From Heliocidaris erythrogramma (lineage: Eukaryota; Echinodermata; Echinoidea; Camarodonta; Echinometridae): a stretch of 64,000 nucleotides of DNA. The position numbers were made by a program, and so were the translations under genes. The stretch covers positions 806,001-870,000 of the forward strand of contig CM046863.1 of the NCBI GenBank assembly GCA_025617745.1, given 5' to 3'. Of this stretch, positions 1 to 58,035 are shown in pieces (the stretch's first letter is position 1; the number at the start of each line of letters is the position of its first letter). The notes below the pieces were generated by a model. That model had not been told where the DNA came from and searched no databases. It worked only from the letters and a program-made list of their open reading frames with translations.

Positions 1-775
1 AAGATGTAGATTGGGTTCCTACCGCGCAATGTATTTTAATTATGAGGATACTAGGGAGCGTAGCAATAAAATGAGAAAATTGAAAATATTCAGTGTGAAA
101 CTACCAATTTCAATGAAGGCAGTATAGAAAAAGTAATTGTCAATTTTGTATAATACCCCCTCAACCCCCTCCCCCCCCCCCCCCCCCCCCCCCCCTGATA
201 CGGGCGCCGATGAGCTCAAGTAAGTTATGCGAGAAGCGTAGCGACCGAGGAATAAGATCTTCCATTTAAAAATTTTCGTTCCTAAATTCATTGTTTTATA
301 GCCATCAATATTTGTAGATAACAATTATTTTACTAAATGCCCAAGGGGCGTAGAGCTATGGCATTACCAGATAACAGGAATTTATATTTGTTTTTAACTT
401 AATAGAATCTGGAATTAAGATATTTTTAAAGCAACTCGTTTGATGGGTCTCTTTCGCATATTTAGGAGCCAATTCTGTAAACTACATTTTTTGAACAGCG
501 CCATCATAATGTATAGAGGAAATCTTACTTCATCATTTAAAAAATCACTCGTGGGCTTTCTGAAGCCTACACCAAACCTACGGAAGTGACTGGCGTGAAT
601 AATCTGAAGAGATTTAGGAGCGCCATCACACCAGGAACCAACCAACCAACCAACCAAATTCGAAACTTATTTTGATAACTGTTATATCTCACTTCCTCAT
701 GAGATTTTTAGAGACAAGGAGGACACTTTTCATTCCTCCCTTCTCCATGTTAAACCAACAAAAATTCGCCTCAAC
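1..775. other. 5' flank of the Ig-receptor gene; no gene recognised
   Basis: Upstream sequence before the first identified coding exon. It contains an uninterrupted run of 25 C at 171-195 and a short (CAAC)n-like stretch near 640-656. I see no convincing TATA box or initiator, so the transcription start and any 5' untranslated exon remain unknown. The open frames here are short and have no recognisable domains. Confidence 0.5.
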
Positions 776-854
776 ATGTTTCAGAAGAAAGTAGGGTGTA
801 TAATCTTACTGTTGTGTTGGACATTCGTTGCTGTAGAAAAGTCCTGCTGCATTT
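776..854 (+). CDS. Receptor exon 1: signal peptide
   Basis: Starts at an ATG and encodes a Lys-containing n-region (MFQKK), a hydrophobic core (IILLLCWTFVAV) and a plausible cleavage region before KSCCI, i.e. a classic secretory signal. It ends at donor GTAAGT (855-860), phase 1. The coding length of 79 nt leaves one base to pair with exon 2. The ATG is the only one preceding the hydrophobic stretch in this frame. Confidence 0.82.
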
Positions 855-3800
855 GTAAGTATTTAGTTTTCTTTCATTTATCGTTATTACTACCAACATT
901 TGATAATTGCCCTGTGTTATCATTACAGGAAAAATAAGTAAAAATAAAAATAATAACATTTTCATCTTGAACACTTCAAGAAATATTTCTAAATATTTAT
1001 AATGTTACTTGAATCTTTGAAGTTGGGTTAAAGCCACATCCCATGGATATGAAAACATAGATGAAGTGATTTTAAACACGGTTAATTGAAAAGCTTTCTT
1101 TTCATGCGTATTACATCAACTAAACTAAGTTTTGAGAAAAAGAAGGATTTTCAATTTTCAAGTGAAAATTTTCCTTATTATACTAGTGTCTGGAGAGACC
1201 ATAAGGTCACCTTTTAAAATAAGCCTTAATTATTTAAGGCTTTATTTTTTCCGATTAAATCTATGGATATAGCTTGATTTTGGAACTGAAATCTTAAAGT
1301 TATATACTTTATATAATTTTTAAGATCAGGGGAGAGTTTCATCAAGCGTTTTGTCACTGATTTTTATCGACAACTGTTATAAGCTATTGAAATCCTTGCA
1401 TCTGATTGGCTGAGAGCAAATTTGTCAGTACAAATCACTGACAAAACGCTGGAGGAAACGCTCCCCTGAATTCAAGTGCGTGTTCGTCTATGGATAGTGC
1501 TTATTCCAGAATAAGGCCACCGTTTTATGTAGAATGTTCTGTAATTAAATGGAATTGATGTAGCATGTTTTCGGAACTGAACTCTTTATTATTTTGGTCA
1601 TATTTCATAACTTTACCATAAACATCTTAACTTTCTTGACGAATCGGTGTACACAAAATATATTGTTATTTTTAAAAATAAAACTAACGAATGTATCATG
1701 TTTGGATGTTCCCTTTCAGTTGTTTCTGAGAATAGGACTGTCACCCTGGGAGAGGATGTTGGATTAAACTGCGTCGGACCTTCATCCCTGTATCCTCTGT
1801 CCAGCATACGATGGACAACAGTTGTCAATGCGAAAACAGCATTTTCATGCCGGGGGCGTACTTGTGGAGTAAATTCTACTCTTCACCAGTTGTACTCAGA
1901 AGTTAAATACACTAGCATATTAAAGATACAGAATGTTTCCCTGGATGACGAAGATACGTATGAGTGTGAAATTGCCAACTATCCTGTCACCGTGGAATGC
2001 AGAATTTCATTAACGGTACAAGGTAATACAACCTACCAGTTAATGAATATTGATCTACAGTAATCCTCAAATAACAAATATGAAATATGCAAGTCCTTCT
2101 ATATCTCCTACAAATTGAGAAAAAGCAGACATGGCATTCTGATCTGTAATTATTTATCTTTATTCGGTATGCATGGAATTGTTCCATGCAGAGTATAAAT
2201 CCTCATCATAGCTGGTAGTGTCAGGAATAAATTGAAGAAGACGAAAAACGCATAAATCGGCAGTTTTACATTTCAGTATAAACAATTTTCGCCACCATTA
2301 ATTACTTTAATGTAAATAATTAGAAATAATAAAATGAGTTCCAATTGTAGTTCCTAGCAGTTTTTCTTTTTCTTTTCTGTTATTTTTTTCTGGATAATTG
2401 TCAGAGCCGTAGGAACAATGTTTGGTTCATTCTAACATTTATATCAACGACGGCAAAGTCTGTCATTATACAGAACTAGTAGATCTATGCATTTCTTACG
2501 GTCAAAAACAAGAAGAGTAAACATGGAATTATCATTTTCTTTTTCTTGTTTTTAGTGCCAGTAAAAGAATTGATAATCGTGGATCTTGACGTTGATGGTC
2601 CATATCTCATTGTAAATGAAACTGTCAAGGCCGTAGCAGGGACTGAGAGGAATCTAACCTGTCGAACACGCCAATCAGTCAAACCAAGCGTTAATCTGGA
2701 ATGGATTCAAATTGGGATGAATATCATATCTGAATACGGCGAAGAAATTAAAGATAAACGTGATGCTCGTCTCATCGTGTCATCAAAAACATTATCATTT
2801 ATACCATTGACGACGGATCACGGAAAGAGCATAGCATGTGCTATTCGTCTGGAAAATGGTGCACGTTCGAATGCGACGTCTGTTATTTTTCAAGTAGAAG
2901 GTTTGAATATTTTCCTCAATCTGCTGTAATCTCATAGCAATATGCCTGTTAAGTAATGTATTCATAGCCACGTCGCCCACAAGCGTTCTCAGGCAAATTC
3001 TGATTCACAACGTCTGCTATGCATAGCATTGATGTACAAAGTGAATGGGCGAATCGAGTAACTGTTGGATTTGTAGAGGCCGTTTCATTCTTCGTTTATT
3101 CATATTTTAGTTCACCACGAGTTCAAAGAGACATTCTGAGTAATATCAACTTTTAGATAAACCGCATATTCAGGATAAAAAACTCAAACTGAACCACAAA
3201 GAGAGATTTGTCTGACCGTTCCGCATGTCTACCCTATACCGTGCGCATACACTTTTGAAATATCTGTCAAAATTGCAGTTCAAAATATTTAGACGATTTT
3301 TTTCATGTAGATTGATGCCGAATAGTCTCATTTATCAAGTGTCACCAACAAAACAATTTTTCGTTCATCTTTTGGCGAACACTGAATGTTTTTGTCCAGA
3401 GTGTGAAAAATGGCTTGCGCCAAATTGAAAGAAGAGGGAAATTCCCGGTGGAGCCACTCATTGAGACTTGGGGACCGCATGACCGTTACCAAAATCGCGG
3501 ATATAGGGGTGAATTTCAAGGAACGTCCACGGACAGAATATTCCTCGAAATATAGAAAATAGGGGTGCGCAGTTGTCCTCGAAATTGATAAAATAGGGGT
3601 CAGGAAGGGGGAAGAAAACCCATGAAGAAAAAATCCCGGAGCCGAGTCGCTAGCTGCGGGCCTGCAGGGCCCAGGGAGGGCGCGTTCATCGTTGCGAAAA
3701 AAAATCCCCGCACTGCCGTCAAGTAACGCTAACAGTAACAGTCCCATTCATACGCTTTCATGTTAGTTGATGGGTGTATGGGTATGAGGCGCTCATATAG

Positions 3801-6800
3801 GCCATAGTTATAGTAGCTTATCTGAAGATAACCTTGTACTCCAGACTAGCTTTTATAGGTGAATATGCTTCAATAGCTTTTGTGTATACTATCAGCGGGC
3901 CTTTTTCCAGTCTAGACAATTCATAGTATTACTTAGTATCATACATCATGAGTCATGAGAGGAAATAATTCATTTATTTAAAATTTTCAATTCTGAATCC
4001 CCAAATTTGTGGCACAGTAAGACTATTTGAAGAATCCATGAATCAGGTCATCTAGCAAATTAAAGAAAATCAAATCTTGCTTAGAGCAATTTTGTTGTCT
4101 GTTTGTGACTGCTGCAACAGTGAATGTTGGATACAGTCCCACATAGGCAAGGGCCCACCCATGGGCCATCTCGTGTATGAATGATCTACAATGGAAATAG
4201 GCACGCTGATACACATTAAAAAATGCATTTTCCTTATATTAATTGCGTGTGAACTTGTAATTTGAGGAATCGGGTCTTGGACACCTATATGTTAATGAAA
4301 AAAGGGTATAAATGTCTTGTCCTTGAAATATGGTAAAATAGGGGAAAGTTTCCGAAAGTGTCCTTACAATCTTAAAAATAGGGGTATTTCAAAGTACCAT
4401 TTTGTCCTTGTTTTGACGTAAAAAAGGGGGTTAAATTTCACAAAATGTCCTTAAAATTGACTGCAAAAGGGGGGTATTTGCATTTTTGGTAACGGTCATA
4501 CGCGTCCCCCTCTGTGGGGGAGTGGCTCCACCGGGGGGAATTTAAACCAGCATTCCGAATAAGTACTCCCATTCAAACAAATCGCTCCTTTGCATAAATT
4601 TATGATTATGTTCTGATAGTCTAGGAATTCTGTGTCAACTTTCTATCATTATTTTAATATACATGGCTCAGAATTAATAATGTGTACTTTAAGCACAGTA
4701 TTCACAATACACAAACACATCAAAACCAATCATTCATTCAAGGACTATCAAATTAATTAATCTTCAAATCATTCAACCAATTAATCAATCAATCAAAAAT
4801 TAATAAATAAACCAATCAGTCAATTCATTAATACATCAACCGCAACAGTTATTCAGTCAGTGAGTGATTCAGTTAATATTTATTAAAGTGATACTTTTCT
4901 TCTTGATTGCATGTGGATTTGATGTTTCTGTGATTTGTGAATACTGTGCTTAAACGATCTTGAAGTAACCTCACATCATTAATTCTCAGCCGTGTATAAA
5001 AAAATGAAATCATTAAAGTGATAAAAAAATTGACATAATATCATGACATAATAATTTATGCAAAAGAGCAATTTGTTGGAATGGGAGTTCTTATTCGGAC
5101 TGCTGTTTTAATTTTTCCTCTTCTTTCAATTTGGCGCAGGCCATTTTCCACACTCCTGACAAAAAACAGAGTTCGCCCAAGCGTGAACATTTTTTTTTGT
5201 AAGTGGCACTTGATAGATGAGACTATTGGGCATCTTTCGACATGAAACAAAATCTTCTAAATATTTTTAGACACTACAAAATGGAATAATTGTAACACTG
5301 GTTTGTCTGGACGATGCCAATTGAAAACCGACAGGATTCGGTAATCTGGCATGATACTATTTTATCTATAACCAAAAAAATATATAGAGAGATACAATGA
5401 ATGAATTCCAGAGAAGACATTGGTAATGCATTGCATTCCAACGTTTTTATTTATTTTCACCAAATTTTCGATCCTCACGGATCTTCCTCAGGGTAATGAA
5501 CAGAGTGAAATGTGTAGGTGAAGCTCTGCTCAGAAAAAGTTGACAATGTAATGTCAATAAATGTATAGGTATATATATAGAGAGAGAGAGAGAGCAAAAA
5601 GCGATAAGTCAATTGTATTTTTTTATATGATTGCCATATAACACTAATCAACAAGAACAACAGGTATATGTATAAATGATTATATTGAAAACAATAACAA
5701 GAAATGACTCTCGAGTAGTTTAAAATAATAATAATATTATATCCATTTATATAGCACAGCTACTATACAAATATACTCTACTGCCCTTAATACAAAGTAT
5801 CACATTATTACCCCGGCTTTAGCCGATCTGCCATGTTAGGCGCTAAGGTATTCAAGGAATTTCTTCCTACCGGGTACCCATTTACTTCACCTGGATGGAG
5901 AGTGGCAAATGTAGATGAATGTCTTGCCAAAGGACATTAGCGCCGCGGCGGGATTCGAACCGCGAACCATGTGATCCACAGTCCGGTGGGCTATTTGTGT
6001 ACTTCACTGTTTCCTGTTTTTTTTACATTTGAACTTATTCTTTATCTCCTATTTCGTACCTAAAGCAACTGAGATTATTCAAATATAGTTCAATTTCTTT
6101 TAAAACCTTTTTTATTATAAAAGAGAACATTAGTGTGAGAAAGATAACTTTTATTGCAAATGATTCTCATTAACCTTTTTTTATAGTAATACATGTATAA
6201 ATTTATTCAGGTCTAGTAAAATAGCCCCTTGCGAGTATACCATTGCTCGAGTCGTGAGCAAAGAGTATAATCTCTACTAGTCTGGATGAACAACAAAAGT
6301 CATCGACATACAATATGAATAGTAGTGGGCCTAGTATGGAGCCTTGAGGTACTCCGCAAGTTATGTCTCCTATTGAGGAGTCACAGTTATTAATAACTGA
6401 AATGATTTCATATTTGTAAAGTAATTCCTGAACCTTTCCAGGGCCTTTCCTCCAATCCCATTTTGATTCACTTGATGTGAAAGTATATCACGATCAACTG
6501 TGTCAAAGGCTCCGGTGAAGGCCAGAATAAGCCGATAGTGTTGGAATTATGGTCCAGTGCGTTCGCAACCTTGTCAATAAATGTCAAGAGAGCATGTGCG
6601 GTAATATTGCTATTCTCGAAAACATTACTCATTATGTTATATTTATCAAGAAAACTAATTGTTCTGTTTATCTTTTCCAGGATCTTTTAAAATATTTTTC
6701 AAAAGTATTTTCTTGTTCTATTTTTTTTTTCATGTAGAATGCGTTTCCAGCGTTGAAATTTGTGACTGCAGAGGGAAATTTCTAAAGCCCTATGATGATG

Positions 6801-15800: not shown

Positions 15801-15921
15801 GATAATCATATTATGTAGGGTATCATTTTAAAGAGAATTAAATGATCTTTTTAGTGGTATCAATCAAACATCAATATTCACTAAGACTAAGGAGAAATGA
15901 TCGATCAAACTTTTTTTGAAG

Positions 15922-15959
<38 letters not shown>

Positions 15960-27900: not shown

Positions 27901-30847
27901 GTATTATTGTCGTATTGGTAGCCATTATTTTATGGAAGACGATTTGGAATAAGAAGAGAGGTAAGTTTTGGAGATTTTACCATACTATTCATTGCATTAA
28001 TCATACCCTATCTTGCATTGTATAAGATTATTCACTTCATTTAACTCTTCAAAATGTTACCAAAATGTGATCAATGCTTACTTTTCAAATGTCTGCACTT
28101 CATTAACCATACATTATTTCCAAAAATATTGTGTACAAAACTTATTATCATTTCTTATAATCGCAAACATTATTCTTTCAGACAACTCTGTGCATAAGAA
28201 TTATTGAAAATTACATTTGAGTTTCGTTTTTTTCGTCCATTAGTTTTGGGGTTCTCTCATTTCTTATTGTTTAATGTTGGAATAACGCATTATCCTTTTT
28301 TAATCTGCCATTTTCTCTGAAATTTCTATGGTAGCATACAATTATAATCATTTATTCAGAATGCTTGATTTATGCTCAAAATTTTGTTACACATTGACCA
28401 CCATATACCTTTCGAGCAATTGGTGATTGAAAATGACAAGTCTATCTGTCACATATACGTGACATCGGCACTGAAAGAGTTAAGTTGCTTTGTCGCAGCA
28501 ATTTTATAATATTCTTTATATCATATGAAGTAAAACTTGATGTAAAAAGGAAGCATTAAATAATTTGCGAGTGAAACGAATAACGTTCCTAGAAAGTAAG
28601 TGCTTGTATACTTAAGTATACAACAAGTGACGTCACAGCCTATTAACGCTCATGAACAGTTTTGGTAAAAATAATGGAACTGGAAAGAAAGTTGTTAAAA
28701 CATATTTTCTAATGTAAGAGATCATTTGGTATTCTACCCATGATTTCCGACAAATTTTAGTGTAAATATATGCGTAGGGAGTGCTTAGTCAGCTGTTGTT
28801 TCCATATACATGTGCATATTATGTTTAAATAAAATAATTTTTTAAAGTTCTAGTTCAAGCCTAATTGCAAAAGAATAACTACACATTTTAATGATAAGTT
28901 TTACTTTTCATTTTGACCCCAGTACATTGTAAATATATGGTCATCATATGTGGTTCCCTTTCTTAGAACTTGGTTTTTATTATCTTCTATGTTCGTTATG
29001 AAGTATTCACTTCACTCTTATCCAACCAGAACAGGCCATTCTTATCACCTTCCACGTACTCGAACATCTTCTGCACACAATATAATTTTATTTACAGGAC
29101 CAAAACTGTGGAATGGCTCCTTAGTATTGTACTGTATTCATCGTCTCCCCTATTATTTTTTGGTTAATGTTTTATTAACATCATCTCTCATATGCATGTT
29201 ATAATCTCAAATTTTGTTTTTAATTCTTAAGGGAATCTATAATATTACAAGCCTAGCGTTGTACTAGATTGCCTCATATTTCACAGCAAACTAGTTTGTC
29301 TTATGACAACTTTAAACATATTGTTATATATCTTTGTATGTTTGCATGCACTGTTTTCTTTTCTTTTTTGGAAAGTATTGAAGACAGTTTTCTATTTGAT
29401 TGTAATAATGCAACGGTCATTGTTTATGTTACATTTATGCAATTCGAAATATGAAATAAAACTGAAACTGGAAACTGAATAATAACATAGGTGTAACGAA
29501 AACAAAAAAGACCTATTACTTCTATCAATTCTAATCCGGCTTGGGGCAATAAAATACAGGTTAACATTGTTGCTCTATGAAACGTCAAAAGATTAATGCC
29601 ATAATTGTATAATTATTTTGAAAAGCATATTTTTTATGAAAAACCAAGAACTATTTTAACAAGGCTTATATTTTGATAACCTTTAGCCTCTTGGTTTTGT
29701 TTTTTTATGTGGAAACACCGTATAACATGAAATGTATGTAGGGCTGTGGCTTCTTTTATTTTACTATGTTTGTTTACACTTCGTCAGCAACTGCATCTTC
29801 CACTCAAGCTTTATCCAACACCTCTTTGAGACCAGCAATGAACACACTTCAGTCTCCATCCAGTTGCATAACTTTACCTGGAAGACTTCACTGTACACCC
29901 ACTACATACAGACCAATTGCCCTAAGTAAAGGAGTTCAGGTTGACATAAGTTCAAAGGTACGTGTGAGTAGGAGTTTTTTTTGCATTTTAGGCATACTGT
30001 CATTTCATCCAAGGTTGGGTTGTCAACTTATATATAATGTATATGCATATATATATATATATATATATCCAAAACGGTTTCATTCTAAAAGGAGCTAAAT
30101 CCACATTTAACATTTTTGATTAATTAAGGTTTTTTGATTTACCACTTTTCCTTATCCACTGACACTTTATTATGATATATATGATAGGGATATTGTCTTA
30201 GAATAATTCAATCATGTTTTTAAAAATCTAGCAATTAATTACATTTTGAAAAAAAAATGTATAATTTGAAGTTCCATGGATTTAGCTGCTTTTGGAATAA
30301 AACTTTAGTCAAATATCTATTTCTGCACATTTAAAGACGTTTAACAATTAGAATTCAACAGGAAACACATTAATATTGATAGCAGAGTACAATCTACATA
30401 TTTTCTGATGTTTATTTGTTGAGAATTAAAAAAGAAAAGATTTTAAGGAATTTCTTATCTTTATGAAAGACGGGGATTGTTTGATGTTTAATTCCAAACG
30501 AGCTATATTCCAAAATACTCATAAACATATCAAAACTTGGTCAATTATGTCAACATTTTGCACTGACGATGTAGACTAGAAACCGCAACATGGGGTTAAA
30601 ATCTTATTACACAGCTTTAGGGAATGTGGTTAAATTAACAAATCCTAAATGACCTTAGTGGATTTAGCTCTTTTTGGAATGAAACCGTTTTGGATTTAGC
30701 TCTGTAACAACATTTTTTCAACTTTCATAAAAAATATTTTTAAATGCGATATGGTGCATTTGATTCCCATGTCTGAGATGCACATATTTATCTTTAAAAA
30801 TCTCGGTCAAAAATGGATTTAGCTCCATTTGGAATTAAGCTCTTCAT

Positions 30848-30885
<38 letters not shown>

Positions 30886-33800
30886 ATACATATCAAAAAG
30901 AGAAGTAAATAAAACTCCGTGAGATCGAGATTTCAGATAACGAATTTTCGCCCATAGGGCTTTGTCAAGTTATGACAAGACTTTTATTTTGTATGAAAAC
31001 AAAATATCTGAAGAAACGTCAAAATAAAGTGCGCATCCAAGTAATGCGCCTAAGCCTAAAAATGGAAACACGTCATAAAGGAAACAAAAGAAGACAAAAG
31101 AAGAGAGGGGGAAAGGGGAGAAAGGGGGTGGAAAGAGAAAAGGGAGGGAAGAGTGGAAGGGAGAAGGGAGAAAGAGACAATAGAAAAGAAGGAAAAACAG
31201 AGGGAGGAAACAAAAAAAGAGAAAATTAAGAGGAAAAACAAGAAAGAGAGAAAAAGAGAGAAAAGAGAGAGAGAGAGAAAAATAAAAAGGCTAGCGGCAA
31301 AAAGTTACGTAAGTGGAAAGGAGTGGAATGTCACATTGAGTCCATGTGGCTGCAAACATCCAAGGCGATGAATCATCCGTTCCTCTCGGCGTCTCCGTTC
31401 TTCATCAGTGCATCCATGACACTGCATCAGGCCACATATCTTCAGGTCGTTCACTGAGTGACCAGGCAAGTTGAAGTGCCGAGCTACAGGGAGACCAGGT
31501 GTGTTAAGCTTGATGGATCTCAGATGCTCCGTTGCCCGGTCCGCCATCCTCCTTTTTGTTTCCCCGATGTAGATCTTGTCGCATGATTGACACATGATGC
31601 CACATATGATGTTGATTGTTGCCATGGGCACCAAAATGGGCCCATTTTACGCCTGCCTCTTCTTGGGTTTCGTCGAAGAAGAAATACTTCAAGGTCCCAG
31701 GCCAATACTTCTGAAGAGGTATATTGATGATTTCGTCGGCATCGCTACATGTTCTATGGAGAATTTAACTGCCTTCATAGAGCATTTCAATAACTTTCAT
31801 CCTTCTCTTCGATTCACCCACAACATCTCAAACCAGAGTGTCCCATTCACATCACCCTCCGATTTGAGGATACGCACATTGCAACCAGCGTGCACTACAA
31901 ACCAATGGACGCACACTTGAACTATACATCATCACACCCACCGAGCTGCAAGAGATCAATCCCCTACTCGCAATTCACGAGACTGCGCCGCCTATGCAGC
32001 AACGATGACGATTACCGTGAGAAATCAAAGGAATGATGACCTTCTTCCAAAAGAGAGGCTATCCAAACGAGGTTAGGTTGTCAACTTATATATAATGTAT
32101 ATGCATATATATATATATATATATATATCCAAAACGGTTTCCTTCTAAAAGGAGCAAAATCCACATTTAGCATTTTTTATTAATTAAGGTTTTTTGATTT
32201 ACCACTTTTCCTTGTCCACTGACACTTTATTATGATATATATGATAGGGCTATTGCTTAGATTAATTCAATCATGTTGATTGAGTTTCGTCGAAGAAGAA
32301 ATACTTAGGAACTACCAAGGTCCCAGGCCAATACTTCTGAAGAGGTATATTGATGATTTCGCTACATGTTCTAAGGAGAATTTAACTGCCTTCATAGAGC
32401 ATTTCAATAACTTTCATCCTTCTCTTCGATTCACCCACAACATCTCAAACCAGAGTGTCCCATTCTTAGACATCACCCTCCGATTTGAGGATACGCACAT
32501 TGCAACCAGCGTGCACTACAAACCAATGGACGCACACTTGAACTATACATCATCACACCCACCGAGCTGCAAGAGATCAATCCCCTACTCGCAATTCACG
32601 AGACTGCGCCGCCTATGCAGCAACGATGACGATTACCGTGAGAAATCAAAGGAATGATGACCTTCTTCCTAAAGAGAGGCTATCCCAACGAGGTCATCAC
32701 TAATGCGGTGAGAAAGGCATCCTCCATGACCCGCCAACTAGCACTACAGCCGAGGGTTCGTTGGAATACCAGTCGCATCCCTCTTGTCCTGACGTACCAT
32801 CCTAACACGGCGAAGCTCGTTTCCCATGTGATGAGCAACACTAAAATTCTGCAGAGGGACCCGTCGACGAGGAGAGTCTTCCAAGATCCTCCCCTAGTTG
32901 CCTACAAAAAGGACAGGAGTTTACGAGAGCTCCTGGTTCACTCACGCATGAAACCAGTACAAGCGGCAGATCAGCTTCCAACCGGCACCACTCCTTGCAA
33001 GAGACGGCGATGCAACACTTGTAGTCACGTGTCAGATTCAACTCACGTAAGAGGGCCTAAGAGCACGTGGCATGTGAAGGGTACATTCACCTGCACCACA
33101 ATCAACATCATATATGCCATCATGTGTCAATCATGCGACAAGATCTACATCGGGGAAACAAAAAGGAGGATGGTGGACCGGGCAACGGAGCATCTGAGAT
33201 CCATCAAGCTTAACACACCTGGTCTCCCTGTAGCTCGGCACTTCAACTTGCCTGGTCACTCAGTGAACGACCTGAAGATATGTGGCCTGATGCAGTGTCA
33301 TGGATGCACTGATGAAGAACGGAGACGCCGAGAGGAACGGATGATTCATCGCCTTGGATGTTTGCAGCCACATGGACTCAATGTGACATTCCACTCCTTT
33401 CCACTTACGTAACTTTTTTCCGGTAGCCTTTTTTTATCTCTCTCTCCCTCTCTTTTTATCTCTTTTTCTCTCTTTCTTGTTTTTTCTCTTAATTTTCTAT
33501 TTTTTTGTTTCCTCTCTCTGTTTTTCCTTCTTTTCTATTGTCTCTTTCTCCCTTCTCCCTTCCTCTCTTCTCTCCCTTTTCTCTTTCCACCCCCTTTCTC
33601 TCCTTCCCCCTCTCTTCTTTTGTCTTCTTTTGTTTCCTTTATGACGTGTTTCCATTTTTGCGCTTAGGCGCATTACTTGGATGCGCACTTTTGACGCTTC
33701 TTCAGATATTTTGTTTTCATACAAAATAAAAGTCTTGTCATAACTTGGAAAAGCCCTATGGGCGAAAATTCTCAAATGTCGATTTCACGGAGTTTTATTT

Positions 33801-35532
33801 ACTTCTCTTTTTGATATTCTTACTTATCTCCGAGCAGAACTTTTTGTTTATATACATACATATATATATATTTTGGAAGAAATGTTCCTTGAACGCAACG
33901 CTGGTGGTCACTCAAAGATGTTTAGTGGAAGGTATATTGAAAGAAATGTCACTATGAGGCGGTTGTAGCCTTTATTGTCCTCCTTTATTTGTCTAGCTAT
34001 TTTCGATCAAAAGATCTTCATCAGGACTGCATAAAAAATACAAAATGATGGCTGATATTTATATCGGAATTCATATTTCAATTTCTCATTATTTCAGTTT
34101 GTCATTATAATTATAATAATATTAATTATCATAATCATTATAATAATTGTTATTATTATTAGTAGTAGTAGTATTATTATTGTTGTTGTTATTGATTTCG
34201 TTGTTATTATCATTACTATTACTAGTAGTATTAGTAGTAGTAGGAGTCGTAGTAGTAGTAGTGTTATGTTGTTTCTTATCATGAACTAGATTTGTATATA
34301 TAGTCATATCCTTTCGCACATTGATTTATTCTTTAAGAGATATGTATATGTATAATAATGATGATGATGTTAATGATAATAACTACGAAATCAATAACAA
34401 CAATAATAATAATAATAATAACAATCATTATAATGATTATGATAATTAATATTATTATAATTATAATGACAAGTACTTACTTGTAAGAAATGGAAATGTA
34501 TATTCCGATGTAAATGTCACCATTATTTTGTGTTTTTTATTCAGTCCTGATGAAGATCTTTTGATCGAAAGCCATAGACAAATAAAGGAGGACAATAAAA
34601 GCAACGACCGCCTCATAGTAACATTTATATTAATATATATATGCATATTTACAGTGTGTCCCAGGAATAAATGAAATCGAGATTTAACGATGTTTAATCA
34701 TATCTTAATCAAAATTACGATTTATAAGTGACACATATTTGTAAAGCTTGGAGCCACTTCTTTCATTTGAAGCCACTCGTATGATACATACTTCACGCAT
34801 GGGTGAATAAAGATAATATGAAGCAGGGCTACCAAAAAGTCCTTATATATCTGAATTTCAAAGAGATAATCACATTTCTATAAACTTCATTTTCTTCCCT
34901 TTCTTATGACACTTCAATCGGGAAAAATGAGCCAGGAATGACAAAGCTCTGTTGGTGTAATTGATGGTTGCATTTCCATGATTTATTAAACGGATTCGTT
35001 GGCACTGGCTGCCTGTCCTCGCAATAAACAATCAAGACAAAAGACTTTATGCATAACTGATCGTCAAGAAAATGGAGTGGTGAGTACACAAGGATAAAAG
35101 CTGATTGATAGTGAGGTGCATTTTCATTAACCTACTTGACCTTGCAGTTAACAACAGAGGAACTAGTATTTCTGGTAACAGAATGGGAACGATCTGGGAG
35201 CCTTTAATAAGTCATGGAAATGCAACCATCAATTTTACACCAACAGAGCTTTGTCATCCCTGGCTCATTTTTCCCGATTGAAGTGTCATATGAAAGGGCA
35301 GAAAACTTTCTAGAAATATGATTATCTCTTTGAAATTCAGATAGGATTGGCCAAACGAATTTTGGTAACCCTGCTTCATATTGTCTTTATTCACTCATGC
35401 GTGAAGTATGTATCATAATGAGTGGCATCACATGAAAGAAGAGGTTCCAAGCTTCACAAATGTGTGTCACTTATTAATCATAATTGTGATTAAGATATGA
35501 TTAAGCATTGATAACTTTTTTTCTGGGACGCA

Positions 35533-35570
<38 letters not shown>

Positions 35571-35652
35571 TCATTCCTGATGTAGCCCTATGGGTGAAAA
35601 TTTGAATTCTTTCATCTCTTAACTGTTGTCTTATTCATCATTGACTTTTGTG

Positions 35653-35694
<42 letters not shown>

Positions 35695-36274
35695 ATATGT
35701 ATGAATATCTGACATTTCTAAAGATATTTTTATTCTTAGTCGGTCAAAATGGATTTAGCTCCTTTGGGAATCAAGCTCTTCATAATAGTTATCTTAGCCA
35801 TTATGTTTAGTCAGGTCAATAAATACGACATAAAGCCAAGTAATGTTTTTAACCCAGTCATATGGAAAGAAGACACCTTTTTATTATATTGTTTAGTTAT
35901 AGTTGAAACATCAACTATTTTTTTTGCAATTATAGGGGACGCTCTGCAAAGAAGAGTATGCTGAAATCTTTGACGTACATCAACCTTCTCCACGTAATCT
36001 TGAGGAGATTGGGTCACCAAGCTACATGGATATGAAGCCTGTACGTTCAGCTATGCCTCTAGGAAACATCTCCGATGTTCCTGGCATATCCAATTTGGCT
36101 TCTCATTGTGAACGAACTCCTAAACTGAAGGCAGCCTCATTGCCGATAGCGAATATGCCTGTATATGAAAATACTTTACGTAACCCAAACTTACCGCAAA
36201 CAAAGCAGACAGCTATATACAACATTACTAATCGAAGTGAACTCCTTGATAGTGTGGTAACAACATACTTATAG
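776..36274 (+). CDS. Multi-exon gene for a type I Ig-superfamily receptor with tyrosine-motif tail (571 aa, join of 8 exons)
   Basis: Assembled by eye from eight exons: 776-854, 1720-2022, 2556-2900, 6738-7040, 8753-8824, 27856-27960, 29788-29957 and 35936-36274. All junctions have AG acceptors and GT donors; phases are 1 through exon 7 and 0 into exon 8, and the total of 1716 nt is an exact multiple of three ending in TAG. Predicted order: signal peptide (1-~21), V-like Ig domain (28-127), second Ig domain (129-242), Cys-rich Ig-like domain (244-343), stalk (345-367), membrane helix (~374-394), cytoplasmic tail (395-571). Tail tyrosines are Y467 (YAEI), Y489 (YMDM), Y536 (YENT), Y554 and Y570. 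By family knowledge, symmetric phase-1 exons are typical of Ig domains, YxxM recruits PI3K p85, YxN suits Grb2-type SH2 domains, and a C-terminal T-x-L fits class I PDZ domains. Ligand and cell type are unknown and I do not recognise a named orthologue. Additional exons inside the 19-kb intron 5 cannot be excluded. Confidence 0.8.
1327..1468. repeat. Hairpin MITE in intron 1
   Basis: The ends are inverted copies of about 40 bp, from CAGGGGAG...GCGTTTTGTCA on the left to the reverse complement on the right (ending CTCCCCTG). Between them is a short unique loop containing CTGATTGGCTGA. The 142-bp length and near-perfect arms fit a miniature inverted-repeat transposable element. Confidence 0.75.
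1720..2022 (+). CDS. Receptor exon 2: V-like immunoglobulin domain
   Basis: Bounded by acceptor CCCTTTCAG and donor GTAATA, phase 1-1, encoding residues 28-127. Ig hallmarks are Cys44 (GLNC), Trp58 (IRW) and the DEDTYEC motif ending at Cys109, with 64 residues between the two core cysteines as in a V-type fold. Extra cysteines at 70, 75 and 120 could form additional disulfides. N-glycosylation sequons occur at N31, N78 and N98. A whole Ig domain in one symmetric exon is the usual arrangement. Confidence 0.88.
2023..2555. other. Receptor intron 2; nothing recognised
   Basis: AT-rich intronic sequence with donor GTAATA and a T-rich acceptor tract. I see no inverted repeat, transposon coding sequence or RNA gene. 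Confidence 0.6.
2556..2900 (+). CDS. Receptor exon 3: second immunoglobulin domain
   Basis: Bounded by a T-rich tract ending TTTTTAG and by donor GTTTGA, phase 1-1, residues 129-242. It shows the strand-B motif NLTC (Cys163), Trp177 in LEW, a hydrophobic SLSF-like strand (KTLSFIPL) and Cys222 in SIACAI. The usual DxGxYxC is degenerate (DHGKSIAC). Spacing of 58 residues between the core cysteines suits an I/C2- or V-like fold. Sequons are at N148, N160 and N233. The donor is weaker than the others (G|GTTTGA). Confidence 0.85.
3260..5290. repeat. Large fold-back element in intron 3, with a nested transposon
   Basis: Sequence at 3260-3440 continuing at 4543-4620 is present in reverse complement at about 5040-5290, and inner portions near 4665-4710 and 4930-5000 (GCACAGTATTCACAA and inverse) are also inverted. 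The left arm is interrupted by the 1.1-kb TIR element at 3438-4542 while the right arm is continuous. The arms are about 80% alike by eye, so this is an old fold-back element. Confidence 0.72.
3438..4542. mobile_element. Non-autonomous TIR DNA transposon nested in the fold-back arm
   Basis: Terminal inverted repeats of about 55 bp: the left end reads AAATTCCCGGTGGAGCCACT and the right end is its inverse with a few indels; both contain TGACCGTTACCAAAA. The interior has no transposase and is rich in AATAGGGGT-like motifs. The superfamily is undetermined because the target duplication is ambiguous (AT-rich junction). Confidence 0.72.
5466..5492 (-). ncRNA. Degenerate hammerhead-ribozyme-like core
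   Basis: On the minus strand the order is CTGAGGA, an imperfect stem-loop AGATCC/GTGA/GGATC, then GAAA. This matches the hammerhead catalytic order CTGATGA-stem II-GAAA except for one substitution in the first box. Hammerhead motifs are known from Penelope-like elements. Stems I and III are not clear, so activity is doubtful. Confidence 0.35.
5575..5594. repeat. (TA)n/(GA)n microsatellite
   Basis: A short TATATA tract running into GAGAGAGAGAGAGAG. Confidence 0.8.
5725..5990 (-). mobile_element. tRNA-derived SINE (minus orientation)
   Basis: Contains GGGATTCGAACCGCGAACC, the inverse of a tRNA T-loop/B-box, and a body with TTATATAGCACAGC, ATTACCCCGGCTTTAGCCG and CCGGGTACCCATTTACTTCACC. The same TATATAGCGC...TTACCCCGGCT body recurs at 25.35-25.44 kb. 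An (AAT)n-like tail sits at the left end, as expected for a minus-oriented SINE 3' end. Confidence 0.7.
6230..6535 (-). pseudogene. CR1/Jockey-like LINE reverse-transcriptase remnant
   Basis: Minus-strand translation in shifting frames gives RT landmarks: AFDTVDRDIL near the right end, then a GIGGKALERF-like segment, and GVPQGSILGPLLFILYVDD-like sequence near 6300-6360. Stops and frameshifts interrupt it. These motifs are diagnostic of the RT of non-LTR retrotransposons of the CR1/L2/Jockey type. It is a dead fragment inside intron 3. Confidence 0.72.
6738..7040 (+). CDS. Receptor exon 4: Cys-rich Ig-like third domain
   Basis: A T-rich tract and CATGTAG acceptor precede it and a strong GTAAGT donor follows; phase 1-1, residues 244-343. 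Length and symmetry match a third Ig domain, with Cys270 (TLSC) and Cys321/322 (NITCC) in the expected places, but the core Trp is absent and there are further cysteines at 244, 251, 253, 329 and 333. Sequons N287, N301, N310 and N318 support an extracellular location. It may be a divergent C2-like domain rather than a canonical one. Confidence 0.8.
7148..7190. repeat. Small hairpin in intron 4
   Basis: GTGAGACCGACA and its exact inverse TGTCGGTCTCAC are separated by about 17 bp. Confidence 0.55.
7239..7813. mobile_element. Fold-back/hAT-like non-autonomous element with 8-bp target duplication
   Basis: Arms of about 130 bp are inverted: TAGCCTTTTGACAAGG at the left and its inverse at the right, continuing through GCGATCGAGCGAC to AGGCCTTTTGGAACCTGG. 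GTTTTCAT occurs immediately outside both ends (7231-7238 and 7814-7821), an 8-bp target duplication typical of hAT-type insertion. No transposase lies inside. A related end pair occurs at 54708-54916. Confidence 0.78.
8165..8420. mobile_element. SINE-like repeat
   Basis: Body with TTTTTTATATAGCGCCTAA, GCGATATACAGATATATTACTACCCCGG and CCGCTCACTGGGGAG. The TATATAGCGC and TTAC(T)ACCCCGG modules parallel those in the SINEs at 5.7 and 25.4 kb. I do not see a clear tRNA head. Confidence 0.5.
8562..8578. repeat. Poly-C tract
   Basis: About 17 consecutive C; a similar tract occurs at 8869-8885, just after exon 5. Such tracts recur through the window on both strands. Confidence 0.9.
8753..8824 (+). 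CDS. Receptor exon 5: short extracellular stalk
   Basis: A 72-nt symmetric phase-1 exon between acceptor CTCTCACAG and donor GTAAGG. It encodes 23 full residues rich in Ser, Glu, Lys and Pro, with one sequon (NVT), consistent with a membrane-proximal linker. It has no independent domain signature; support comes from splice sites, phase and position. Confidence 0.68.
9438..10430 (+). CDS. Tc1-type transposase (DD34E), with a deletion at the first catalytic segment
   Basis: A 330-codon frame from the ATG at 9438. The N-terminal half has the paired-like helix-turn-helix (DVAERLGVSPGTITKWKQKF, then SGRPKITTEQQD). Catalytic-domain landmarks are GGGSVMVWGGIS, LQDDNARPHRA and SPDLNHIEHLWDQLG, with 34 residues between the second Asp and the Glu. 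The first catalytic motif, normally FSDES followed by several residues before DGR, reads FGDDGR, so about ten residues are missing in frame. The frame is otherwise intact with no premature stop, suggesting recent decay or trans-mobilised copies. The enzyme would cut and paste at TA sites, but this copy is probably inactive. Confidence 0.9.
   Translation: MPRVSNVQKARAIGQIEAGMLQKDVAERLGVSPGTITKWKQKFRATGDVKDRPRSGRPKITTEQQDRYIRVLALQNRRRSSQSIQRSVVRRFNTRVSDQTVRNRLHAANLRARKTAKKPAMTVRQKQERLRWCRDHLRWNRREWQMVMFGDDGRVKVWRRRGERFDDSCIDRVTPFGGGSVMVWGGISTAGKTELVVIDGNLTAQRYRDEILQPTAFPYLRNMGNDAILQDDNARPHRARLVRNFLEREDITGMEWPACSPDLNHIEHLWDQLGQSVRKRVTNETTLAGLRQILIEEWNAVPQQRITKLISSMRRRCQAVVQALGSSTRY
10680..10810 (-). 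repeat. 3' LTR of the gypsy-like element
   Basis: Starts TGTTACGGGCCGCTCCCTGC on the plus strand and differs from the other LTR at one base by eye (TTTACGTAG versus TTTAAGTAG). A purine-rich stretch (GGAGGGGAGA on the minus strand) abuts it and could be the polypurine tract. Confidence 0.85.
12185..12712 (-). pseudogene. Gypsy pol fragment: RNase H domain
   Basis: The minus frame carries gypsy RNase H landmarks: LLVDASDVDAGAVLTQ, PISFFSKKF, NYSTVEKETLALILALEHF, VRVLTDHNPLTF and IADALSRV. The preceding sequence does not resemble the RT palm or thumb and lacks YxDD, so RT was deleted upstream. Nothing downstream resembles the HHCC or catalytic core of integrase. Confidence 0.85.
12889..13284 (-). 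pseudogene. Gypsy-like pol linker fragment (unassigned)
   Basis: Acidic, low-complexity frame overlapping the end of the protease frame by a few bases. It probably represents the region between protease and RT. No catalytic motif is visible. Confidence 0.45.
13281..14015 (-). pseudogene. Gypsy-like zinc knuckle and aspartic protease
   Basis: The minus frame contains one CCHC knuckle (CYYCKKVGHFKSSC) and then the retropepsin active-site motif DTGAAQSLI with a downstream IILGND-like segment. This is the nucleocapsid-protease junction of a gypsy polyprotein. It is separated from the upstream gag frames by frameshifts. Confidence 0.83.
13999..14876 (-). pseudogene. Gypsy-like gag (two frames, frameshifted)
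   Basis: Frame 14876-14190 has an N-terminal helix-rich region, a Gln/Arg/Glu-rich coiled-coil stretch (ELELEIARVQLQREQVVLQ) and the capsid-like region VERYFLHFEKVAQSLDWP. The capsid continues in another frame at 14247-13999 (AYRQKFRN, FDRWCQSL, LLEEFKRSLPQEVRSHL), resembling the SCAN-like capsid C-terminal domain of gypsy/Ty3 gag. At least one frameshift separates the halves. Confidence 0.75.
15465..15481 (-). promoter_or_regulatory. Candidate primer-binding site
   Basis: On the minus strand, directly after the 5' LTR, the sequence reads TGGGGGCTTGTGTCGG. The first part resembles the tRNA-Pro type primer-binding site found in several LTR elements; the second half diverges. Confidence 0.45.
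15482..15612 (-). repeat. 5' LTR of the gypsy-like element
   Basis: 131 bp, essentially identical to the copy at 10680-10810, implying a recent insertion. Tc1 sequence resumes immediately to the right. Confidence 0.85.
16278..16425. repeat. Imperfect tandem repeat, roughly 15-18 bp unit
   Basis: Variants of GCATTTTTACCTCTG recur about eight times with substitutions and small indels. No transposon ends are visible. Confidence 0.6.
16533..16561. repeat. 29-bp near-perfect palindrome
   Basis: CGCAGAAAACACTA followed by its inverse TAGTGTTTTCTGCG around one central base. An isolated dyad with no flanking element seen. Confidence 0.7.
17117..18619 (-). mobile_element. Tc1/mariner remnant with TIRs inserted in the MITE
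   Basis: The left end AACCCCTCCAAAAAAGTTC and the right end GAACTTTTTTTGAGGGGTT are inverted; further in, GGGCAAAGTCAAAAGTGAAA (17292) is inverted at about 18422. TA flanks both sides (17115-17116 and 18620-18621). Its interior keeps only the 3' part of a transposase gene. Confidence 0.85.
17882..18240 (-). pseudogene. Tc1 transposase C-terminal fragment
   Basis: Minus-strand frames give FQDDNARPHRARI, NSPDLNPIEHLWDQ and, after a frameshift, LAELRQILIEEWN and CQAVVAVFGSSTRY. These are the second Asp, the Glu and the C terminus of a Tc1 transposase closely related to that at 9.4-10.4 kb. The N-terminal DNA-binding domain and first Asp are absent. Confidence 0.85.
18934..20160. other. Intron 5 interval; nothing recognised
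   Basis: AT-rich sequence without transposon ends, long frames with domains, or clear inverted repeats. Confidence 0.5.
20175..20340. repeat. Degenerate 12-bp tandem repeat
   Basis: About a dozen variants of GACATCGTCTTG. One plus frame stays open across it, giving a four-residue LDIV-like periodicity, but it has no start codon or splice context, so I treat it as a minisatellite. Confidence 0.6.
20570..20646. repeat. Compound hairpin
   Basis: TTTTCAGGTGCCGGATATTACATATA and a second GGTGCCAGATATTACATATA are followed by the inverse TATCTGGCACCTGAAAA, so two direct half-repeats share one inverted partner. Confidence 0.7.
21225..21502. mobile_element. MITE with about 55-bp TIRs
   Basis: The left arm contains GTGAAAGGGTGCAAAATTC followed by AGACTTGA; the right arm is its inverse, ending GCTCATTCAAGC. 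The loop has no coding sequence. Confidence 0.72.
21840..22115. repeat. Poly-G-containing repeat
   Basis: GGAGCGGATCCAGGATTT is followed by a run of about 17 G (21880-21896), a second GGGGGAGGGGGCGGG block and another G run near 22099-22111. The GGATCC(A/T)G modules flank the G tracts. No coding content is credible. Confidence 0.55.
22330..22637. mobile_element. TTGGGTAA-rich MITE, 5'-truncated copy
   Basis: Matches 47990-48272 almost base for base (CCCAACCACATAATATTTAT, GGTTGGGCAATCCTATTGGG) and ends with TTTTAAGAGTGTA, the TIR of the fuller copy at 47.4-48.3 kb. Confidence 0.82.
22640..23510. repeat. Inverted and direct repeat cluster
   Basis: Segments at about 22830-22960 and 23140-23270 are inverse copies (AATGGCGTTGAAGAGAGACAT and inverse). 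A module TTATTTATGTTTTCAGGCTTTCTGG is repeated directly at about 22658, 23273 and 23430. No coding sequence is seen. Confidence 0.68.
23537..26086. mobile_element. TU-like fold-back transposon with minisatellite arms
   Basis: Outer arms: left (23537-23760) and right (25684-26086) carry inverse-oriented tandem repeats of about 26-28 bp centred on ATTATGAATAGCGACCCTC. Inner arms: units of about 150-200 bp (AAAGCTCTGACGTTTTATAGCAAATTTGAGA...GGACGCAATACGGCACTGTATGTA) occur about three times in one orientation at 23.79-24.34 kb and four or five times in the other at 24.49-25.33 kb. Both ends share TCCGCT and AGGACCGCTATTCAT. No transposase is present. The right half also contains a SINE fragment. 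Confidence 0.8.
25338..25435. mobile_element. SINE fragment
   Basis: (AAT)n tail followed by GGATATTTATATAGCGCTCA and ATTACCCCGGCTCTAGC, the same body as the SINE at 5.7 kb. Confidence 0.6.
26625..26925. mobile_element. MITE (301 bp)
   Basis: Ends ATAGGGAGTTTTC...CAGCAACGTACGC and inverse ...GCGTACGTTGCTG...GAAAACTCCCTAT; inner parts (GAACCGGAAC and GTTCCGGTTC) are also inverted. No coding sequence. Confidence 0.8.
27856..27960 (+). CDS. Receptor exon 6: transmembrane segment
   Basis: A 105-nt exon with acceptor CTTCTACAG and strong donor GTAAGT, phase 1-1, residues 369-402. A hydrophobic run of about 21 residues (Trp374 to Trp394, containing IIVVLVAIIL) is followed by a basic stop-transfer cluster (K..NKKR). 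This gives type I topology for the preceding Ig domains. It lies 19 kb downstream of exon 5; the gap is repeat-filled. Confidence 0.83.
28950..29480 (+). pseudogene. CR1-like LINE 3' end
   Basis: A frame near 28990-29130 gives TRTGHSYHLPRTRTS and GPKLWNGSL, the conserved ORF2 C-terminal pattern of CR1/Rex-type LINEs (TR...P..RT...GP.LWN.L). About 320 bp later it ends in ATGAAATAAAACTGAAACTGGAAACTG, a typical short-repeat LINE tail. It lies in intron 6. Confidence 0.72.
29788..29957 (+). CDS. Receptor exon 7: juxtamembrane cytoplasmic segment
   Basis: Acceptor TTCGTCAG and donor GTACGT; enters in phase 1 and leaves in phase 0, residues 404-459. The segment is Ser/Thr/Pro-rich with one tyrosine and no known domain. 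The frame stays open across it and the phase change matches exon 8 exactly, which supports its inclusion, but skipping or alternative borders cannot be excluded. Confidence 0.66.
30010..30845. repeat. AT-rich inverted repeat with GGATTTAGCTCC modules
   Basis: The left module CCAAAACGGTTTCATTCTAA is inverted near 30660-30695, with further TGGATTTAGCT copies at about 30700, 30813 and 35751. About 220 bp of the left part is duplicated at 32065-32278. (TA)n tracts flank it. Confidence 0.65.
30893..31634 (-). mobile_element. Penelope-like element 3' part, minus orientation
   Basis: The minus frame (31634-31305) encodes the GIY-YIG region: INIICGIMCQSCDKIYIGET, then RHFNLPGHS, followed by a purine-rich 3' untranslated stretch and the terminal sequence with GCCCTATGGGCGAAAA. 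It is an inverted counterpart of 33100-33830. Confidence 0.82.
31622..32060 (+). mobile_element. Penelope-like RT fragment, plus orientation
   Basis: Begins where the minus copy ends and encodes FVEEEI, LLKRYIDDFVGI and LRFTHNISNQSVPF, i.e. the RT active-site region (YIDD) of a Penelope-like element. It has a small deletion relative to the copy at 32.3 kb that breaks the frame after QSVPF. Confidence 0.78.
32281..33830 (+). mobile_element. Penelope-like element, RT C-terminal part to 3' end
   Basis: Frame 32280-32657 has the RT segment LLKRYIDDF and VPFLDITLRFEDTHIA. After a frameshift near 32650, frame 32654-33412 runs through RVRWNTSRIPLVLTYHP and CKRRRCNTC to the GIY-YIG endonuclease (INIIYAIMCQSCDKIYIGET...ERRRREERMIHRLG). 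The pyrimidine-rich 3' region ends near 33830. Penelope-like elements combine RT with a C-terminal GIY-YIG domain. The 5' half is missing and the reading frame is broken. Confidence 0.85.
32654..33412 (+). pseudogene. Penelope-like GIY-YIG endonuclease region
   Basis: A 252-codon open frame. The CKRRRCNTC cysteine pair precedes the GIY-YIG core, read here as INIIYAI and KIYIGET, with downstream RATEHLRSIK and a catalytic-type Glu in EERRRREERM. The family uses this nuclease for target cleavage. It lacks the RT needed for autonomy. Confidence 0.82.
34001..34025 (-). ncRNA. Hammerhead-ribozyme-like core, minus strand
   Basis: The minus strand reads CTGATGA, stem-loop AGATC/TTTT/GATC, GAAA, the exact order of the conserved hammerhead catalytic boxes. 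Stems I and III would involve flanking bases and are not obvious. Confidence 0.5.
34547..34570 (+). ncRNA. Hammerhead-ribozyme-like core, plus strand
   Basis: CTGATGA, stem II AGATC-TTTT-GATC, GAAA, identical to the inverse copy at 34001-34025. Consistent with a type I hammerhead from a Penelope-like or SINE-like retroelement end. Confidence 0.5.
34652..35543. mobile_element. Fold-back DNA transposon with about 400-bp TIRs
   Basis: Starts ACAGTGTGTCCCAGGAA and ends with the near-inverse TTTTTTTCTGGGACGCACTGT. Inner arms match over several hundred bases (GACAAAGCTCTGTTGGTGTA and inverse, TTCACGCATG and inverse). The central region has no transposase. Confidence 0.8.
35577..35599 (+). ncRNA. 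Degenerate hammerhead-like motif
   Basis: CTGATGT, stem AGCCC-TAT-GGGT, GAAA; similar to the Penelope-like ends at 30.95 and 33.75 kb (AAGCCCTATGGGCGAAAA) but with one catalytic-box change. (TA)n tracts lie on both sides. Confidence 0.35.
35936..36274 (+). CDS. Receptor exon 8: tyrosine-motif cytoplasmic tail and stop
   Basis: Follows acceptor TTTTTTTTGCAATTATAG in phase 0 and runs 113 codons to TAG (36272-36274). Motifs: EEYAEIF at Y467 (YAEI, close to the Src-SH2 YEEI type; not a strict ITIM because position -2 is Glu), SYMDM at Y489 (YxxM, PI3K p85 type), PVYENTL at Y536 (YxN, Grb2 type), AIYNI at Y554, and C-terminal TTYL (class I PDZ pattern). Several SP/TP sites are also present. It lacks a kinase or TIR domain, so signalling would depend on recruited SH2 or PDZ partners. 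Confidence 0.82.
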   Translation, partial: GTLCKEEYAEIFDVHQPSPRNLEEIGSPSYMDMKPVRSAMPLGNISDVPGISNLASHCERTPKLKAASLPIANMPVYENTLRNPNLPQTKQTAIYNITNRSELLDSVVTTYL

Positions 36275-36350
36275 AGTCGTCATCTCTCACTTCAGGCCTG
36301 TGAACCATTTTTTTTTCAAGTGAGCTGACCCCCCCCCCCCCACACACACT

Positions 36351-36356
36351 AATAAA
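36351..36356 (+). terminator. Poly(A) signal AATAAA after receptor exon 8
   Basis: A canonical hexamer lies 77 bp after the stop codon, just beyond a poly-C/CA stretch. Other A-rich hexamers follow in the AT-rich sequence, so the exact cleavage site is uncertain. Confidence 0.6.
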
Positions 36357-42830: not shown

Positions 42831-42834
42831 GATT

Positions 42835-54916: not shown

Positions 54917-54998
54917 CAAAAACCCCTGGTCAGTCGTAAAAGAGTGTATGCACTGTACATGTAAGACTACCATAGGCCATGTACTAAAACGGGGAACC

Positions 54999-57900: not shown

Positions 57901-58035
57901 GAGCAATTATCGCAGGAGCAAATGTCGACGGAGCAATTGTCGCAGGAGCAATTATCGCGGAGCAATTGTCGCGGAGCAATTGTCGTATTTTTAGGAGCAT
58001 TTGTCGCAGGAGCAATTGCCGCCGGAGCAAATGTC
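54999..58035. mobile_element. TU-like fold-back transposon with 15-bp tandem-repeat arms
   Basis: The left arm (54999-55660) and right arm (57597-58035) are inverse arrays of 15-bp units, variants of GACAATTGCTCCTGC and GACATTTGCTCCGTC. The terminal 100 or more bp of the two arms are identical by eye. The 1.9-kb centre has no transposase; it carries a 190-bp palindrome (55790-55979) and unclassified sequence. Multiple frames are open through the arms only because 15 is a multiple of three and the units lack stops. Confidence 0.85.
55790..55979. repeat. 190-bp palindrome
   Basis: The left arm from GTTGCACCCTGCTTGTTCTC through GGAATACGGGAAATATCTACG is inverted at the right, ending GAACAAGCAGGGTGTAAC. 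The centre contains repeated TTCGGCCTCCGGCCTCATGG. It looks like a separate hairpin element in the core of the 3-kb fold-back. Confidence 0.8.

Follow-up and report, generated by a model that had tools for sequence, protein, structure and literature searches.

On the plus strand of the window (the whole 64,000-nucleotide stretch of Heliocidaris erythrogramma DNA that was analysed), eight exons bounded by GT-AG splice sites were rebuilt between positions 776 and 36274; when joined, they gave 1716 nt, or 571 codons and a stop. The seven introns lie in phases 1, 1, 1, 1, 1, 1 and 0, and all eight exons are free of stops and frameshifts. The sequence-only reading of this DNA had described eight exons with agreeing phases, an exact coding length and a 571-residue product, and the rebuilt model, which ends at the same two positions, recovered each of these features. 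Because end points, exon number and length are shared, the inner exons are presumably also the same, that reading having listed only the ends. Computation alone supports the gene structure, the first two Ig domains, the helix that spans the membrane and the presence of the tail motifs. The window probably contains a genuine animal gene, whose product would be a single-pass surface protein with Ig domains and a signalling tail, broadly of a known adhesion-receptor type.

Exon 1 (776-854, residues 1-26) starts at the earliest ATG in the open frame 608-937, encodes a signal-peptide-like segment and ends in phase 1 at a GTAAGT donor. The next five exons are all of phase 1-1: exon 2 (1720-2022, residues 27-127) encodes a V-set/I-set Ig domain and exon 3 (2556-2900, residues 128-242) a CD80-like C2-set_2 Ig domain, both recognised by Pfam; exon 4 (6738-7040, residues 243-343) encodes a cysteine-rich third domain; exon 5 (8753-8824, residues 344-367) encodes a short membrane-proximal stalk with an NVT N-glycosylation sequon and one cysteine; and exon 6 (27856-27960, donor GTAAGT) encodes a transmembrane helix at about residues 374-394, followed by KTIWNKKR. 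Exon 7 (29788-29957, residues 403-459, phase 1-0, donor GTACGT) supplies a Ser/Thr-rich juxtamembrane cytoplasmic segment, and exon 8 (35936-36274) is the terminal coding exon, comprising residues 460-571 of the cytoplasmic tail and the stop. An AATAAA polyadenylation-type signal lies 77 nt past the stop codon (36351-36356, plus strand), which in AT-rich DNA is weak evidence. Low donor scores were obtained for exon 3 (GTTTGA, -0.67) and exon 1 (0.16).

Exons 1-4 were taken from a reading of the sequence. Between 7041 and 35935, 14 candidates exceeded both splice-score cut-offs, and exon 6 was the sole hydrophobic one among them. Exon 7, the least certain exon of the model, was picked on its splice sites and phase from an in-phase enumeration that yielded 92 candidates at loose criteria. 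For the stalk, we searched for a 72-nt exon that would raise 547 residues to the 571 of the earlier reading; 22 open phase 1-1 candidates of this length were found in five gaps, 18 of them between exons 4 and 6, and 8753-8824 was chosen because it combined the best acceptor, which scores highest in the gene, with a good donor and brought the total to 571. Leaving out the stalk gives a seven-exon model of 547 residues that keeps the frame just as well. Extra phase 0-0 exons between exons 7 and 8 were rejected: candidates with the exact length of 72 nt had weaker splice sites or fell inside a repeat element, and one of 75 nt (35740-35814) would create a second hydrophobic stretch.

Cytoplasmic tail and its tyrosine motifs

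About 177 residues follow the helix, and six tyrosines are distributed among them: Y443 in TTYRPI (29901-29918, exon 7), Y467 in KEEYAEIF (YAEI at 35957-35968), Y489 in PSYMDMKP (YMDM at 36023-36034), Y536 in PVYENTL (YENT at 36164-36175), Y554 in AIYNIT and Y570 in the C-terminal TTYL (36260-36271), all on the plus strand. YAEI, YMDM, YENT and the terminal TTYL, the four motifs previously picked out, are all present and all encoded in exon 8. YMDM has the YxxM form of a PI3K p85 SH2-type motif and YENT the YxN form of a Grb2 SH2-type motif; TTYL, with threonine at -2 and leucine at 0, is of the class I PDZ-binding type and fits [ST]-x-[VIL]. The description of the tail as PI3K-, Grb2- and PDZ-type thus holds for the presence of the motifs, but each one is common by chance: when the last 175 residues were shuffled 20,000 times, at least one YxxM arose at a frequency of 0.16, at least one YxN at 0.35, a class I PDZ end at 0.04 and all three together at 0.0025, the motif set having been chosen after it was seen. 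Pfam returned no match to the tail in either exon-wise or whole-model scans, and solved structures gave none beyond one at E 0.11.

TTYRPI also fits both the ITSM form TxYxx[VI], a fit absent from the earlier reading, and YxxPhi, and no tail tyrosine (0/6) fits the ITIM form [SIVL]xYxx[ILV]. YRPI, YAEI and YMDM each conform to the YxxPhi endocytosis signal, raising the possibility that the tail tyrosines serve mainly in endocytosis and that their fit to PI3K and Grb2 motifs is coincidental. YENT falls outside YxxPhi, however, and methionine at +3, as in YMDM, is the classic p85 form; we regard this explanation, which is compatible with the other readings of the gene, as somewhat unlikely.

Extracellular domains and their relatives

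Hydropathy gave two peaks, as expected of the signal peptide and single membrane helix previously proposed: the 19-residue Kyte-Doolittle mean reached a maximum of 2.02 in the N-terminal signal-like segment (window from residue 9) and 2.96 in the helix (window from 375), and no 19-residue window outside these two exceeded 1.6. In Pfam, exon 2 alone matched V-set (8.5e-07, 29.6 bits, cut-off 26), I-set (1.3e-06, 28.8 bits, cut-off 23.7) and, slightly under its cut-off of 30, Ig_3 (1.7e-06, 28.9 bits), and exon 3 alone matched the CD80-like C2-set_2 (1.4e-07, 31.9 bits, cut-off 21). A full-length scan placed Ig_3, I-set and C2-set_2 above their cut-offs and V-set below (22.5 versus 26). With Ig profiles above curated cut-offs, the predicted product is a member of the Ig superfamily. 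Eleven N-glycosylation sequons lie on the outer side, between residues 31 and 369, and the exon 2 domain contains two additional cysteines (C70 and C75) and an odd C120.

Of the three Ig-like domains originally proposed, those of exons 2 and 3 are supported by Pfam, whereas exon 4 matched no Ig profile. Its product is cysteine-rich and lacks tryptophan, as had been observed, with eight cysteines (244, 251, 253, 270, 321, 322, 329 and 333), a ninth (345) following in the stalk. No Ig family was found in Pfam at E <=1 for exon 4, or at E <=10 for exon 4 plus stalk, most weak matches being removed by the HMMER filters. Solved structures likewise yielded no significant relative of exon 4, the six matches ranging from E 0.79 to 2 and including one nanobody at 1.1. 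Single-sequence AlphaFold2 gave exon 4 a pLDDT of 37.9, a failure that carries no information because the certain Ig domain of exon 3 was modelled equally badly (37.0). Exon 4 would be compatible with an Ig domain by its exon phase, its length and the 51-residue C270-C321 spacing alone; with its many cysteines and the lack of any Ig profile match, it is at most a putative Ig domain.

Searched against solved structures, exons 1-4 matched 47 sequences at E <=1, among them SYG-2 (2.6e-04, residues 31-232), Kirrel1 (6.6e-04, residues 94-229), LRIG1 (8.9e-04), CADM3 (0.015), nectin-1 (0.023, residues 27-240), neurotrimin and Dscam. Domains 1 and 2 alone matched 13 at E <=0.01, led by LRIG1 (7.3e-05), SYG-2 (1.3e-04) and Kirrel1 (3e-04), with neurotrimin (<0.01) and CADM3 (0.0073) also included. 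The alignments to SYG-2 and nectin-1 run through both domains, and that to Kirrel1 starts within domain 1 and covers most of domain 2; these three are junction or recognition molecules in which a V-type domain is followed by a C2-type domain. Any family assignment is loose, because domain 1 alone matches generic Ig proteins (46 matches at E <=0.1, including LRIG1, contactins, titin and nanobodies) and domain 2 alone matches only weakly (JAM 0.22, Kirrel1 0.64). The first two domains seem to lie near the SYG/Kirrel, nectin/CADM and IgLON proteins, with none of these families preferred over the others. The gene had been put forward as a surface signalling receptor, possibly immune or adhesive; a single-pass Ig surface protein with a long tyrosine-bearing tail agrees with the model, and domains 1 and 2 seem to lean, loosely, to adhesion and recognition molecules (SYG-2, Kirrel1, neurotrimin, CADM3 and nectin-1) and not specifically to immune ones.

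The main rival is nonetheless a CD96-type immune receptor. Under this explanation an immune-type signalling receptor (CD96/CD226/CD28-like) would sense a ligand on cells or microbes and signal through YxxM to PI3K, with TTYRPI as a switch and adhesion as a secondary role. The matches to domain 1 do include CD226 (0.0081), CRTAM (0.024) and CD96/tactile (0.063), but none is better than those to LRIG1, contactin or titin. TTYRPI has the ITSM form given above, whereas the ITIM form is found at none of the six tyrosines; the TTYL end perhaps resembles the C-terminus of CRTAM. The tail of human CD96, as described in PMC9866520, carries a YxxM beside an ITIM, and of these the tail encoded here shares the YxxM. 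A second exon copy, which would suggest a clustered immune family, was also absent from the window: when exons 2, 3, 4, 6 and 8 were compared by phmmer with 2166 stop-free frames of at least 20 aa, only self-matches were obtained at E <=1. We consider an immune receptor unlikely, and the adhesive interpretation is taken up again below.

Exon statistics and intron contents

At loose splice criteria the exons do not exceed chance. Phase 1-1 candidates numbered 5 on this strand and 11 on the reverse strand; the 36.3-64 kb part of the window gave 6 and 7 on its two strands, with one hydrophobic exon on each, and 40 simulations gave a mean of 6.3 candidates and a hydrophobic exon in none. A joint strength was then computed from acceptor, donor, phase and content, and was compared with 60 first-order Markov simulations and three real-sequence controls (the reverse strand, and a same-size piece, of at most 27.7 kb, of 36.3-64 kb on both strands). 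The stalk, transmembrane and terminal exons were each unique within their own stretch and were equalled in 0 of 60 simulations and in none of the three controls, figures that overstate the case somewhat because the exons under test supplied the thresholds and the splice weights were general background values. Candidates as strong as exon 7 did arise, in 2 of 60 simulations and, with two hits, in a single control out of the three.

Codon statistics, obtained for exons 2-4 and 6-8 by comparison with overlapping windows that are free of stops and avoid both the listed exons and the transposon frames, were mixed. Windows scoring as well numbered 0 of 241 for exon 3, 25 of 567 for exon 2 and 143 of 567 for exon 4; for exon 8 there were 0 of 273, but 14 of 273 when training was on the gene exons alone. 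For exon 7 and the transmembrane exon, 1503 of 5505 and 8479 of 16068 windows, respectively, scored as well.

The longer introns contain mobile elements. A Tc1/mariner-type transposase frame of 339 codons lies open on the plus strand at 9411-10427, in the intron between exons 5 and 6 (HTH_Tnp_Tc3_2 1.7e-16, DDE_3 3.3e-13), and minus-strand retroelement pieces occupy 12188-14876 (RT_RNaseH 5.3e-35, zinc knuckle 1.7e-04); we take these gag/RNase H pieces to be Gypsy-like, and the frame upstream of them had no Pfam match at E <=0.01. An inverted duplication of an element, with arm pieces of up to 359 nt that are 92-97% complementary, was found at 30942-33771; it contains a weak GIY-YIG-type frame (0.0041, under its cut-off) and is presumably Penelope-like. 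A 26-bp minisatellite is present at 25660-26049, where a 156-nt reference was matched ten times at 26-nt spacing. In the intron between exons 4 and 5, 7227-7390 is, by eye, repeated imperfectly and in inverted orientation near 7660-7820, possibly representing a hairpin-type mobile element.

Downstream of the gene, a LINE-like relic (42832-44179, plus strand) includes a frame at 43757-44176 with a zinc-binding reverse-transcriptase domain (zf-RVT, 5.5e-09); its upstream frames, 42832-43134 and 43318-43608, had no Pfam match. Tandem-repeat tracts at 54965-55730 and 57442-58125 are open in several frames on both strands, and by eye the same repeated peptides occur on opposite strands in the two tracts. 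Pfam detected no neighbouring genes on either strand of 36301-64000 at E <=0.01. When stops were replaced by X, scans of 7041-27036 (plus strand) and 36301-64000 (both strands) detected only the Tc1-type transposase and one reverse-transcriptase zinc-binding domain; elsewhere, Pfam was applied to 1-7040 as exons 2-4, to the minus strand of 7041-36300 as three chosen frames and to the plus strand of 27037-36300 as chosen frames. Rfam gave 0 matches at gathering thresholds, and no IMG/VR relatives were obtained, one stretch fitting a pattern, unconfirmed.

It is quite unlikely that the locus is a remnant or comprises two transcription units, with exons 1-4 coding for an Ig protein that is secreted or ends in some other way and exons 6-8, some 20 kb downstream beyond the transposons, forming part of another gene. 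In favour of this, transposon relics lie in both gaps (8825-27855 and 29958-35935), exon 7 does not clearly exceed chance, and donor scores are low for exons 1 and 3. Against it, every exon is free of stops and frameshifts, the stalk, transmembrane and terminal exons agree in phase and stand out against the controls, and the Tc1-type transposase was the sole plus-strand Pfam domain in 7041-17039 (E <=0.05) and 17038-27036 (E <=0.01).

A proposed contact receptor

In our best reading, the locus is a real, intact animal gene whose product is a type I membrane glycoprotein with the V plus C2 arrangement (nectin, Neph-SYG or CADM-like), proposed to act as a contact receptor, and we assign this reading a probability of roughly 0.6. 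At cell contacts the product would resemble nectins or Neph proteins, its tail predicted to be phosphorylated on tyrosine and anchored through a PDZ domain. Assuming that the gene is transcribed, the V-set domain at the outer end, sitting on top of the C2-set domain, would bind a partner on an adjacent cell, either itself or another Ig receptor; the cysteine-rich third domain, putatively an Ig domain, and the stalk would space the receptor from the membrane and may join chains through disulphides. We infer that clustering would then lead Src-type kinases to phosphorylate the tail tyrosines, that YMDM and YENT would recruit p85 and Grb2-type adaptors, and that the TTYL end would anchor the receptor on a PDZ scaffold at contact sites.

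Each family to which the product was compared differs from it in some respect. Nectins, according to one account (PMC7286890), consist of a signal sequence, V, C and C domains, a transmembrane segment and a tail, and most carry a C-terminal PDZ motif, which PVR lacks. Like nectins and CADMs as outlined there, the predicted protein has a signal sequence, a V-type Ig domain first, two more extracellular domains, one transmembrane segment and a PDZ-type end (PMC7286890); unlike them, it has a third domain without an Ig profile, ends in TTYL and bears YxxM and YxN in its tail. The V-set, C2-set_2 and single transmembrane segment appear to follow the nectin layout, which would be complete if exon 4 is an Ig domain, and TTYL has the sequence of the C-terminal PDZ-binding motif of the family (shuffle frequency 0.04). 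A nectin or nectin-like protein is not the nearest relative, however; among solved structures, SYG-2, Kirrel1, LRIG1 and the IgLONs outscore nectin-1 and CADM3.

SYG-2 and Kirrel1 are among the best matches of domains 1 and 2, a likeness to the Neph/Kirrel/SYG proteins. A standard Neph, Kirrel or nephrin protein has five or more Ig domains. The present gene, unlike these, has three domain-sized extracellular exons; no further Pfam Ig domain was found on the plus strand of 7041-27036, although a divergent domain can escape Pfam, as exon 4 may illustrate. Domain counts vary by method: one survey (PMC8294545) gave invertebrate KIRREL1 orthologues more than three and up to five Ig domains, with exceptions, although its method detected just three in arthropods and in human KIRREL1. 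PMC12203975 reports that nephrin, itself an Ig adhesion receptor, has p85-binding phosphotyrosines and a non-canonical C-terminal PDZ motif, and the tail encoded here similarly joins a p85-type tyrosine motif to a PDZ-type end, in this gene as motifs only. Echinoderm KirrelL is likewise an Ig-domain transmembrane protein, but its gene was intronless in all echinoderms examined, according to PMC8903837, in contrast to the eight exons and seven introns found here. Because the gene fits neither KirrelL nor a standard five-Ig Neph/Kirrel gene, and a nectin is not its nearest relative among solved structures, we leave it as an unassigned V-C2 Ig receptor.

More speculatively, the gene could represent an unnamed, lineage-specific family of invertebrate receptors that combines nectin-like V-C2 domains with a new cysteine-rich third domain, a multi-tyrosine tail (ITSM-like, Src-SH2-like, PI3K and Grb2) and a PDZ end; we think this improbable, but if true, such a family would be a non-vertebrate counterpart of the nectin and CD96-type contact receptors. 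Among the matches listed from open-access PubMed Central titles and abstract openings there was no invertebrate V-C2 receptor with such a tail, although this does not show that none has been described. Outside vertebrates, layouts like that of nectins do occur with a different tail: PMC7286890, which dates the nectin family back to early chordates (sea squirt), mentions a lancelet protein of the order IgV/IgC/IgC/TM/SH3.

Read as a contact receptor, this gene alone alters little. If expressed as modelled, it would be another short Ig adhesion-type receptor with phosphotyrosine-motif and PDZ-type elements in its tail, assigned here to no named family, and a tree that includes it with the nectins, Neph/Kirrel and CADM proteins would help to date the joining of contact adhesion to PI3K-type signalling.
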